64,000 bases of DNA, taken from NCBI RefSeq assembly GCF_009659535.1, contig NZ_VJZZ01000007.1, positions 186,001 through 250,000 of the forward strand. Reading direction: 5' to 3'. Both the position numbers and the translations under genes were made by a program. Shown here piece after piece: positions 1-3,570 of the stretch. The stretch is from Aggregicoccus sp. 17bor-14 (GTDB lineage: Bacteria > Myxococcota > Myxococcia > Myxococcales > Myxococcaceae). The notes beneath the pieces are model-generated. The model was given only the letters and a program-made list of their open reading frames with translations. It searched no databases and was not told where the DNA came from. Within the stretch, counting starts at the first letter, position 1. Every line of letters starts with the position of its first letter.

Positions 1-1
1 G

Positions 2-1963
2 GAGCTGGAGCGGCTGGACGATGCCCTGACGCGTGCCCGCGCAGAGAAGGACGCGTACGAGGCGCAGCTGAAGGCGGTGGCGGGGCTGCAGCCGCAGGCG
101 CCCGAGAGCCCGGTGGACGCGCCGCCGCCGCGCCTCAACGCCACGGGCTGGTCGGCCGCGGTCAGCTTCGTGGTGGAGACCACCGAGCGGCTGCAGGCGC
201 GCGTGCGCGAGGTGGAAGAGCACATCGCGCAGCTCGAGCAGGCCCGCGAGCGGCAGGCGGAGGAGGCCGCACGGCTGGGCAATCCGCAGCGCCAGGGCGG
301 GCTCGCGGTGGTGCCCGTGCTGCGCGGCCACGGCGCCGCCACCTTGCGCCTGAGCTACGCCACGCCTCGCGCGCGCTGGTTCCCCGCCTACGAGCTGCGG
401 CTGCTGCCCGAGGCGAACCGCGTGGAGGTGGCCTTCTCGGGCCTGGTGAGCCAGGAGAGCGGAGAGGACTGGACGAACGCCCAGCTCACCCTGAGCACCG
501 CGCTGCCCTCGGGCGCCACCGCCGTGCCGCGGCTCTCCACCTGGAAGGTGGGGCAGAAGGAGCGCTTCATCCCCACGCCCGAGACGCGCGTGGAGCAGGT
601 GCGCGCGCCCCCACCCGAGCTGCCCCCGCTCCGCGCACAGGTGGACGCGGACCTCCTGCTGCGCCGGCGCCTGCTGGCCCTGGTGGGCAAGGAGCCCGAG
701 GACCTCTCCATCCCCGAGCCGGCACCGCCAGAGGAGCCCCACGACGCCTCCGGCCAGCGTGCCCCGCCTCCGTCCGCGCCACCGCCGCGGCCCACGCAGG
801 GCATCGCCCCGGGGCAGGGACAGAGCTTCATCGTGGGCGTCGTGAGTGATGCCTCGACGAAGCAGCCGGCGGCCGACGTGGTCGTCACTGCCACCAGTCC
901 CAACATCAGCGGCGAGCAGGTGGTGGTCACCGATGCCGACGGCCGCTACCGCATCCCGCAGCTGCCCCCGGGCAACTACAGCCTGCGCTTCGAGAAGGAG
1001 TCCTTCCAGCCGTACAGCCGCTCCGGCGTCCAGCTGCGCGCGGACCGCACCATCCGCGTGAACGTGGAGCTGCTGCCGGCGGGCCTGCAGGAGACGTTGG
1101 TGGTGCAGGGCACCGCGCCGAGCATCGACGTGGGCTCCACCTCCACGGGCGTCAACGTGGGCGCGGACTTCGTGCGCGGCGTCACGGTGACGCGCCCTTC
1201 GGGCAGTGGCGGCGCGGCGCGCTCGTTCGAGGGGCTCACCGGCTCCTCCTCGCAGAGCGAGGCGGTGCTCACCTCGGTGGGGCTCGCTCCGCCCGCGGGC
1301 TGGGTGCGGCCGCAGCTGGATGCGCGCCTGCCGGCGGAGAGCGCAGGGGGCCGCGACCTGGACTTCCGTGCGGCGCGCCCGGAGACGGTGCGCACCGGCG
1401 GCAGCCTGCGCCAGGTGCCGCTGTTCAGCGAGAGCTGGCCGGTGAAGGTGGAGCGCGAGTTGTACCCGGCGCTCGCGCAGGACGCCTTCCTCGTCGCCGA
1501 GCTGAAGAGCCCCGCGCGCCAGGTGCTACCCGGCGGCGACGCGCAGCTCTACGTGGGCGCGGACCCGGCCGGCAGCGCACGGCTGCAGGTGGTGGCGCCC
1601 GGTGAGCCCTTCACGCTGCCGCTCGGGCTCGACCGCGCGGTGCACCCGGCGCGCAACGTGCAGCAGGTCACGGCGGAGCGGGGCTTCATCGGCAAGGACG
1701 AGGTGACGGAGTACCTCACCACCATCGAAGTGGCGAACCCGTACCCCTTCGCGCTGCCCGTGCGCGTCCACGACCAGTGGCCCCTGAGCCGCAGCGAGGA
1801 CGTGCAGGTGCGCCTGCTCAGCACCGAGCCCTATGCCGAGCAGGACGAGGTGAAGGGTGCGCTCACCTGGCGCCTCACCGTGCCCCCTTCCGGCAAGACC
1901 ACCGTCTCCTTCCGCTACTCCGTGCGCCGCCCCAAGGGCTGGCGCCTGCACCAGCAACAGTGA
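2..1963 (+). CDS. MuiA-like DUF4139 protein with inserted carboxypeptidase-regulatory/receptor-type module (5' partial)
   Basis: The reading frame is open from the left edge, so the N-terminus (and any signal peptide or DUF4140 domain) lies outside the window. About 653 residues are visible. A coiled-coil stretch (nt ~150-300) leads into the first half of a DUF4139 beta-rich domain (nt ~330-560, with the family motif SGEDWTNAQLTLSTALPSG). The second half lies at nt ~1290-1960. Between them sits a proline-rich linker, then a carboxypeptidase-regulatory-like beta-sandwich (nt ~824-1070; VVSDASTKQPAADVVVTATS, DADGRYRIPQLPPG). A segment follows that resembles the start of a TonB-receptor plug (LQETLVVQGTAPSIDVGSTS). 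DUF4139 proteins are grouped with MuiA, named for mucoidy inhibition; biochemical role unknown. It ends 8 bp before the related next gene, so the two form a tandem operon. Domain identity is firm; function is not. Confidence 0.85.
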   Translation, partial: ELERLDDALTRARAEKDAYEAQLKAVAGLQPQAPESPVDAPPPRLNATGWSAAVSFVVETTERLQARVREVEEHIAQLEQARERQAEEAARLGNPQRQGGLAVVPVLRGHGAATLRLSYATPRARWFPAYELRLLPEANRVEVAFSGLVSQESGEDWTNAQLTLSTALPSGATAVPRLSTWKVGQKERFIPTPETRVEQVRAPPPELPPLRAQVDADLLLRRRLLALVGKEPEDLSIPEPAPPEEPHDASGQRAPPPSAPPPRPTQGIAPGQGQSFIVGVVSDASTKQPAADVVVTATSPNISGEQVVVTDADGRYRIPQLPPGNYSLRFEKESFQPYSRSGVQLRADRTIRVNVELLPAGLQETLVVQGTAPSIDVGSTSTGVNVGADFVRGVTVTRPSGSGGAARSFEGLTGSSSQSEAVLTSVGLAPPAGWVRPQLDARLPAESAGGRDLDFRAARPETVRTGGSLRQVPLFSESWPVKVERELYPALAQDAFLVAELKSPARQVLPGGDAQLYVGADPAGSARLQVVAPGEPFTLPLGLDRAVHPARNVQQVTAERGFIGKDEVTEYLTTIEVANPYPFALPVRVHDQWPLSRSEDVQVRLLSTEPYAEQDEVKGALTWRLTVPPSGKTTVSFRYSVRRPKGWRLHQQQ

Positions 1964-1971
1964 GGACTCCC

Positions 1972-3570
1972 ATGCGCTCCGTGTCCCCCTTCGTCGCCCT
2001 CGTCCTCTCCGCGCTCGCCGCTCCGGCGGGCGCCTCCCCCTCGCGCATCGCCTCCGTGCTCGTCTACCCGGACCGCGCGCAGGTGACGCGCACCGTGTCC
2101 CTGCCGTGCGAGGGCCGCCCCGTCGCCGTCTTCGAGGGGCTGCCACCCTCCGCGGACCGGCTCTCCCTGCGCGCGCGCGCCGAGGGCGCGCAGGTGGAGA
2201 GCCTCGTGTACGAGCAGCGCGCGAGCGACACCCGCTACGGCGCCGAGGCCGAGGCGCTGGAGCAGCGCCGGCAGGTGCTCACCCGCGAGCTCGCGGCGCT
2301 AGACGATGCGCAGGAGAGCGCCCAGGCGCGCTGGCAGCTGGGCGCGCGCTTCAACGCCGTGGCCGTGGAGCAGGTGCAGCGCGAGCTGGCCGCACCTCGC
2401 CCGGATGCGCGGGCGTGGACGGCCGCCCTCGAGTCTGCGCTGGGCGCGCAGCTGGAGGCGGCCGCACGGAAGGCAGCGACGCTGGCGCGCGAGCGCGAGC
2501 TGCGCGCCGAGGCGCAGGAGGTGGACGCGCGCCTCGCCGCGCTCGCCGCCGCCAGCGAGCGCGGAGAGCGCCGGGCCGAGGTGCGGCTCACCTGCACCGC
2601 GCAGGGGGAGGCCCGCGTGGAGCTGAGCTACCTGGTGGGCGGGGCCGGCTGGGAGCCCACCTACGAGGCGCGCAGCGACGAGGCCCACGGCGCGGTAGAG
2701 CTCACCACGCTGGCCACCGTGCGCCAGCGCACGGGCGAGGACTGGCGCGGCGCGAAGGTGACGCTCTCCACCGCCGTACCGCTGCAGAACGCCACCCCGC
2801 CCGAGCTGCGTTCGCTGCAGCTGCGCGCGAGCGAGCGCCCCGAGGAGCGCAAGGTGCTGGTGCGCCGCGACGAGTACCGCGAGCACGCCCGGGCGGGCAG
2901 CGGCGAGTCGGCCCTGGAGTCGGGCGCGCAGGACCTGCGGGCGAGCGCCCAGGGGCTCTCGGTGCAGCTCCAGGTTCCCGACGCCGCGGACGTGCCGGGC
3001 GACGGCACGGCGGTGCGCCTGCAGGTGGCCCGCACGCGCCTGAGGGCCACCTTCCACTTCCGCGCCGTGCCCAAGCTGCTGCCGGCGGTGTTCCGCGTGG
3101 CGCGCCTGACCAACGCCGCGCCCTTCCCGCTGCTGCCGGGCAGCGTGGAGCTGTTCCGCCCTTCGGGCTTCCTCGGCCGCCAGACGCTGGAGCGCGTGGC
3201 GCAGGGGGCGCCCTTCGAGCTCACCTTCGGCCAGGACGAGGGGCTGCGCGTGGAGCGCGCGGTGGTGGACGAGGTGCGGCGCACCCAGGGGCTCTTCGGC
3301 GGCCGCTACCGCTTCCGCTACGCCTACCGCTTCACGCTGGCCAACCACCACGCCGGCGCCGAGGACGTGGAGCTGGCTGAGCACCTGCCCGTCTCGGAGC
3401 TCGACGACGTGTCGGTGCGGCTGGAGGACACGACGAGCGCCGGCTACCAGCTCGACACGGGCGACGGCATCGCCACCTGGCGCGTGCGGCTCGCGCCGGG
3501 CGAGCGCCGCACGCTGGAGCTCGCCTTCCACGTGGACGTGCCGACCGAGTACGAGCTCGGCGACCTGTAG
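1972..3570 (+). CDS. Exported MuiA family (DUF4140/DUF4139) protein
   Basis: 532 residues from an ATG shortly after the upstream stop codon. Residues 1-23 form a signal peptide ending near PAGASP, so the protein is exported. The DUF4140 segment follows (ASVLVYPDRAQVTRTVSLPC, residues ~27-120). Next is an Ala/Arg/Glu-rich coiled coil (~95-195), then DUF4139 (~205-530) with the signatures ELSYLVGGAGWEPTYEAR and TGEDWRGAKVTLSTAVP. It is a paralogue of the preceding gene but lacks the inserted receptor-type module, giving a clean internal comparison. An upstream in-frame extension exists, but it overlaps the previous gene and has no signal peptide, so the internal ATG is preferred. Likely envelope-associated; molecular function unknown. 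Confidence 0.88.
   Translation: MRSVSPFVALVLSALAAPAGASPSRIASVLVYPDRAQVTRTVSLPCEGRPVAVFEGLPPSADRLSLRARAEGAQVESLVYEQRASDTRYGAEAEALEQRRQVLTRELAALDDAQESAQARWQLGARFNAVAVEQVQRELAAPRPDARAWTAALESALGAQLEAAARKAATLARERELRAEAQEVDARLAALAAASERGERRAEVRLTCTAQGEARVELSYLVGGAGWEPTYEARSDEAHGAVELTTLATVRQRTGEDWRGAKVTLSTAVPLQNATPPELRSLQLRASERPEERKVLVRRDEYREHARAGSGESALESGAQDLRASAQGLSVQLQVPDAADVPGDGTAVRLQVARTRLRATFHFRAVPKLLPAVFRVARLTNAAPFPLLPGSVELFRPSGFLGRQTLERVAQGAPFELTFGQDEGLRVERAVVDEVRRTQGLFGGRYRFRYAYRFTLANHHAGAEDVELAEHLPVSELDDVSVRLEDTTSAGYQLDTGDGIATWRVRLAPGERRTLELAFHVDVPTEYELGDL

Follow-up and report, generated by a model that had tools for sequence, protein, structure and literature searches.

A receptor-derived module with a TonB-box-like sequence inside the DUF4139 domain of a myxobacterial MuiA-family protein

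Results

The P0001 gene and its tandem partner

The window, the whole stretch of 64,000 nucleotides of Aggregicoccus sp. 17bor-14 DNA that was analysed, opens inside a gene, P0001, whose start codon lies upstream at window position -286 (L005:7714). The whole gene (L005:7714-9963) encodes 749 amino acids, and the open frame at 2-1963 is its 3' portion (Table 1); the signal peptide and most of DUF4140 are encoded upstream of the window, the N-terminus being signal-peptide-like as judged by eye. Pfam analysis of the full-length protein placed DUF4140 at residues 27-121, DUF4139 across residues 211-741 (E 2.4e-43) and, within the latter, a CarboxypepD_reg domain at residues 373-453 (PF13620, E 9e-18). 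The entire body of P0001 belongs to the MuiA family (DUF4140 plus DUF4139): it scored 253.9 bits against TIGR02231, above the curated cut-off of 112.6. The DUF4139 domain is nevertheless interrupted, as a sequence-only reading of this DNA had proposed, since the genome profile scan found it in two pieces, split at profile positions 73/74 by about 240 residues. P0001 thus departs from the usual (not formal) architecture of the family, in which DUF4139 is continuous, as in P0002.

P0002 is the conserved tandem partner of P0001 in those orthologous loci that extend far enough. The sequence-only reading had taken this insert-free paralogue as making the gain of the insert visible, an argument that fails: P0002 is an ancient lineage separate from P0001, and both genes are old and have been kept in tandem. 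No ton, exb or glt genes were recognised adjoining P0001, the neighbours being judged by eye.

Table 1. Features of P0001 and P0002 in the window
Feature	Position	Strand	Basis or remark
P0001, 3' part of 749-aa MuiA-family (DUF4140-DUF4139) gene	1..1963	+	start codon upstream of window
Helical arm preceding DUF4139 (two long helices, coiled-coil-like)	2..277	+	AF2 model, helices at residues 2-27 and 47-92 of window protein
DUF4139 first half, profile 1-74	344..589	+	genome profile scan
Upstream portion of variable linker: short helix LLLRRRLLALVG at 653-688, proline-rich at 713-826	653..826	+	sequence, ortholog comparison
CarboxypepD_reg (Oar NTE) domain	830..1072	+	Pfam PF13620, E 9e-18; beta sandwich in model
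Tract 87% nt identical to receptor gene at C7:141 kb, same genome	842..1231 (390 nt)	+	gene nt 1129-1518 vs L022:3269-3658
TonB-box-like QETLVVQG (resident receptor: QETVVVQG)	1088..1111	+	alignment to resident receptors
Receptor plug start (APSIDVGSTSTGVNVGADFVRGVTVTRPSGSGGAARSFEGL), ends before Pfam-recognised Plug part	1115..1237	+	receptor homology
Variable linker, downstream part, including family-conserved VGLAPPAGW element	1238..1414	+	ortholog comparison
DUF4139 second half, profile 73-205	1322..1936	+	genome profile scan
P0002, tandem paralogue, DUF4140 and DUF4139, uninterrupted (no insert)	1972..3570	+	ortholog loci, Pfam

Composition and predicted structure of the insert

The DUF4139 halves are separated, in order, by a short helix, a proline-rich stretch, the CarboxypepD_reg domain, a TonB-box-like sequence and 41 residues homologous to the start of an Oar plug. 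This agrees with the earlier description of a proline linker, a carboxypeptidase-regulatory domain and an Oar-type N-terminal piece, the segment after CarboxypepD_reg being ~85% identical in amino acids to a resident Oar-type receptor. Absent from that description was the TonB-box-like sequence, whose core ETLVVQG (1091-1111) aligns with ETVVVQG of the resident receptor and is located between the NTE and the plug start, the same place as the TonB box of likewise-built TonB-dependent transporters. Outer-membrane receptors, along with bacteriocins, are the best-known carriers of TonB boxes.

The receptor signalling or plug-like element that had been suggested was confirmed in part. A plug start is present; an STN domain is not, and up to E 1 Pfam gave P0001 no match to Plug (PF07715). 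The missing Plug score is explained by the resident receptor, in which the Pfam Plug match (residues 184-249) begins just past the copied part. Nor did Pfam detect any beta-barrel family in P0001. In place of a signalling (STN) domain, the insert has an NTE followed by a TonB box and a plug start.

The window part of P0001 was modelled with AlphaFold2, using an alignment whose 11 rows all came from related loci or the window itself. The DUF4139 body was mostly modelled at pLDDT 80-95 and the CarboxypepD_reg strands at ~58-77, and the TonB box, the plug piece and most of the linkers fell below 50; the upstream linker is disordered apart from its short helix. The TonB box and plug piece, being disordered in the model, are probably accessible. 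The sole folded part of the insert is CarboxypepD_reg, a beta sandwich, which is the outcome that the sequence-only reading had staked its claim upon: in a comparison with the PDB, model residues ~271-383 matched transthyretin-like and CnaB-like domains at middling Z scores (6-7.3), the fold expected of this Pfam family. A fold search with the DUF4139 body returned AP2 mu-domain and carbohydrate-binding-like matches, also of middling Z, and no sequence relatives of this body were found in the PDB. Homology together with a folded domain eliminates the possibility that the insert is random disordered filler.

Resident receptors as donors of the insert

The receptor gene at C7:141 kb, 45 kb from P0001, aligns over the entire piece from NTE to plug start, and two further resident receptors are 80-82% identical to the insert in nucleotides. 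In a module tree of 138 columns, short and with several weakly supported branches, the P0001 insert grouped with the receptors of its own genome and not with the inserts of DUF4139 orthologs. Both a single clade of all DUF4139 inserts and a grouping of the P0001 insert with those of genus g8 were rejected by the AU test (p = 0.0001 in each case), and the same test disposes of a single vertical insert in all orthologs without later exchange. In a tree of the body, built without the linker region, the window's genome and genera g8, g11, g17 and g23 formed one clade (14 rows, 94/94), every member of which carries the Oar module or a remnant of it; this tree would allow for just one capture in the main Oar-type clade. 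One genome (G012) sits in the other clade and yet has an Oar remnant of its own, independently. Read together, the body and module trees indicate that capture took place at least twice and that, in the lineage of the window, the insert was additionally overwritten or recaptured.

The synonymous distance between the insert and the resident receptor was 0.38, as against 0.59-0.70 between the DUF4139 halves of P0001 and those of g8; the exchange between insert and receptor therefore probably postdates the split from g8. The dN/dS of the insert was 0.71 and 0.59 in two close pairs and 0.41 in a third, compared to 0.11-0.25 for the DUF4139 halves (two close pairs) and ~0.2 for the corresponding stretch of the receptors. 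Constraint is weaker on the insert than on the DUF4139 body.

The linker in P0001 orthologs

A family search covered 58 genomes, at least 57 of which contained a match to P0001, some matches being receptors, and 28 P0001 orthologs were read. The region between the DUF4139 halves was hypervariable in all 28. The survey of myxobacteria that the sequence-only reading had called for located the full-length architecture in at least five other genomes and pieces of it in others, and an assembly chimera or a recent accident is thereby excluded.

Several orthologs have lost part of the module: L035 is without most of the NTE, L039 retains only a scrap of the plug, L038 lacks the plug start, and the plug piece of L043 is a later one. 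The TonB-box pattern is broken in L034 and absent from L035 and L039; its retention in the other inserts is weak evidence, because the pattern varies among receptors too. Reading frames are open in all copies of the module. A side observation concerns L043 and L077 (both g17), where the linker of the DUF4139 ortholog contains a divergent CarboxypepD_reg and a later, SPKNGYVVDGLS-like piece of the plug, which differs from what was copied elsewhere.

A CglF-homologous segment in the same linker

In 11 orthologs without an Oar module the same linker is filled by a conserved acidic motif. An HMM of this motif was run against ~6,300 frames and, beyond those orthologs, had no matches other than CglF proteins (E 1e-5 to 1e-11) and one YfbK protein; most orthologs without the Oar module carry a CglF-homologous segment, and the same HMM found no such motif in the P0001 linker. 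CglF (GltF) itself differs in being a free-standing small secreted protein; it localises to gliding-machine clusters (PMC4488436). In the window's genome, a small secreted protein encoded on C8 matched the CglF model NF033764 at E 6e-20, with 71.1 bits, below the model cut-off of 90. Its gene, in the gene group L165, adjoins CglE, GltG-like and GltC-like genes, and a second, related CglF-like small gene on C4 (gene group L166) stands beside GltG and GltE genes; in both groups the neighbour of the CglF-like gene is of the GltG type. Oar and CglF segments were never found together in one examined linker, and by phylogeny these exclusive states represent few independent events.

Other carriers of the two segments

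An N-terminal Oar module was also found in YfbK-type vWA proteins from Myxococcus sp. RHSTA-1-4 and from genera g23 and g26 (L116, L117, L119, L061, L181-L184), with a dN/dS of 0.34 in one pair. CglF segments occupy N-terminal linkers of YfbK proteins in four genomes (G009, G005, G002 and G001; loci L167, L172, L174 and L175). YfbK-type proteins of the same bacterial family have thus borrowed the same two segments as P0001 and its orthologs, although their body fold is unrelated. In the force transducers proposed elsewhere (PMC12204202), which are tethered to the inner membrane, vWA is the C-terminal domain. A single protein, the VIT-vWA protein L173:2-2575 (G008), has a CglF segment at 693-740 immediately before a C-terminal TonB_C domain at 792-854. 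Separately, in the YfbK-type proteins L133 and L146 (G052 and G013) the N-terminal linker holds a glycine/valine repeat (VVGGVVGGVLGGVLGG).

A second, distant DUF4139 protein of the window's genome, a lipoprotein with a lipobox-like LSGC (L006:2964-4775, C3, minus strand), contains a TonB-box/plug-start insert without an NTE; this insert was found in none of its orthologs examined. The non-receptor carriers of the motifs read in ~40 genomes were DUF4139 proteins, YfbK-vWA proteins and a few very short secreted proteins; the motif surveys behind this list (22 and 20 genomes) used E cut-offs, so that rarer carriers may be missed. Among the short proteins are two secreted frames of the window's genome, of 154 and 158 residues (L024:1038-1499 on C3 and L026:1008-1481 on C10), made up of just CarboxypepD_reg and a plug-start-like tail, and similar ones occur in L061 (274 residues) and L118 (160 residues). 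These could be truncated receptors or genuine small proteins. The window's genome also encodes nine TonB-like tails scoring above the cut-off.

Discussion

Capture of the receptor module by a MuiA-family linker, and the recurrence of such capture, are well supported. The absence of a match to any described system, suggested from the sequence at the outset, held up in that the arrangement was not found in the literature searched; the DUF4139 literature yielded incidental mentions only. Closest to the insert is the Oar-type TonB-dependent transporter of M. xanthus (PMC6434023), with which it shares the NTE (PF13620), TonB box and plug start. P0001 differs from it in having neither a beta-barrel nor a Pfam-recognisable plug, and in holding the module internally to another periplasmic protein.

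Our preferred explanation, which we consider about evenly poised between right and wrong, is that the insert is an exchangeable cassette, acquired by capture, for docking to TonB-like transducers. The disordered linker of a periplasmic MuiA-family protein captured the N-terminal portion of an Oar-type receptor, which was later overwritten or recaptured from resident receptors. With the NTE positioned outside the DUF4139 body, the exposed TonB box may be bound by a Ton- or Glt-type transducer through its TonB-like C-terminal domain, and the MuiA protein could thereby be recruited to or pulled by a motor-driven transducer, or compete for one. The CglF (GltF) segment would presumably play an equivalent role with the gliding machine in sister genera. 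In M. xanthus, a fragment comprising the NTE and plug (Oar24-248) binds TonB C-terminal domains in a two-hybrid assay, the TonB box lies in the plug domain, and TonB-box substitutions impair Oar function (PMC6434023). GltG and GltJ end in domains of the TonB type, whose presumed targets are outer-membrane proteins with a TonB box (PMC5349195). What the two segments have in common would then be a connection to TonB-like transducers, which is direct in the case of Oar and, in that of CglF, indirect, through gene neighbourhood and one fusion. From these parallels we infer the binding of TonB domains, the equivalence of the Oar and CglF segments and an effect on motility or the envelope.

A different account, to which we give clearly less credence, is that the module is a passenger: a permissive DUF4139 linker repeatedly receives abundant receptor 5' sequence by recombination, which then erodes without function. 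Donors are plentiful, with many receptor copies per genome among the matches listed, and the fast evolution of the insert (dN/dS 0.4-0.7) and the partial deletions in L035, L038, L039 and L043 fit such erosion. This explanation stays alive because the insert is more weakly constrained than the body. It accounts poorly, however, for non-receptor carriers that, among those read, were DUF4139, YfbK-vWA and a few very short secreted proteins rather than random genes, for two recipient families that have each taken up segments from two unrelated donors, for a YfbK module present in two genera (dN/dS 0.34, one pair), and for an open frame in every copy.

It is improbable, in our estimate, that the useful part is the NTE, serving envelope partners as a domain for binding or stability, and that the TonB box and plug start hitchhiked. 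The NTE alone is folded within the insert in the model, L038 and L043 retain it without the plug start, and PopC is still secreted when Oar lacks its NTE, which may therefore have a different role (PMC6434023). Set against this are the C3 DUF4139 lipoprotein, which has the TonB-box/plug part without an NTE, and the plug remnants with little or no NTE in L035, L039 and L052.

Least probable is a decoy, in which the module would bind TonB-like domains to titrate or brake motors and not to draw work: P0001 has no barrel to open, and in Pseudomonas MuiA reportedly inhibits swarming and promotes biofilm (PMC7603352, PMC10418997), but by sequence a decoy is indistinguishable from productive docking. 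By analogy, the Pseudomonas effects would be compatible with an envelope role, and are no proof for P0001.

A tentative extension, which we hold with rather less confidence than the cassette itself, is that TonB-like force transducers of myxobacteria have a class of clients without a barrel, made up of MuiA/DUF4139 and YfbK-vWA proteins, with the linker cassette swapped per motor: Oar NTE and TonB box for Ton-type transducers, the CglF segment for the Glt gliding machine. The repeated movement of a receptor TonB-box region into periplasmic proteins, at the very site where relatives hold a segment of a gliding protein, would suggest that TonB-like motors have partners so far overlooked. Taken together, this offers a concrete lead on the roles of MuiA/DUF4139 and YfbK proteins, and on the binding partner of CglF.
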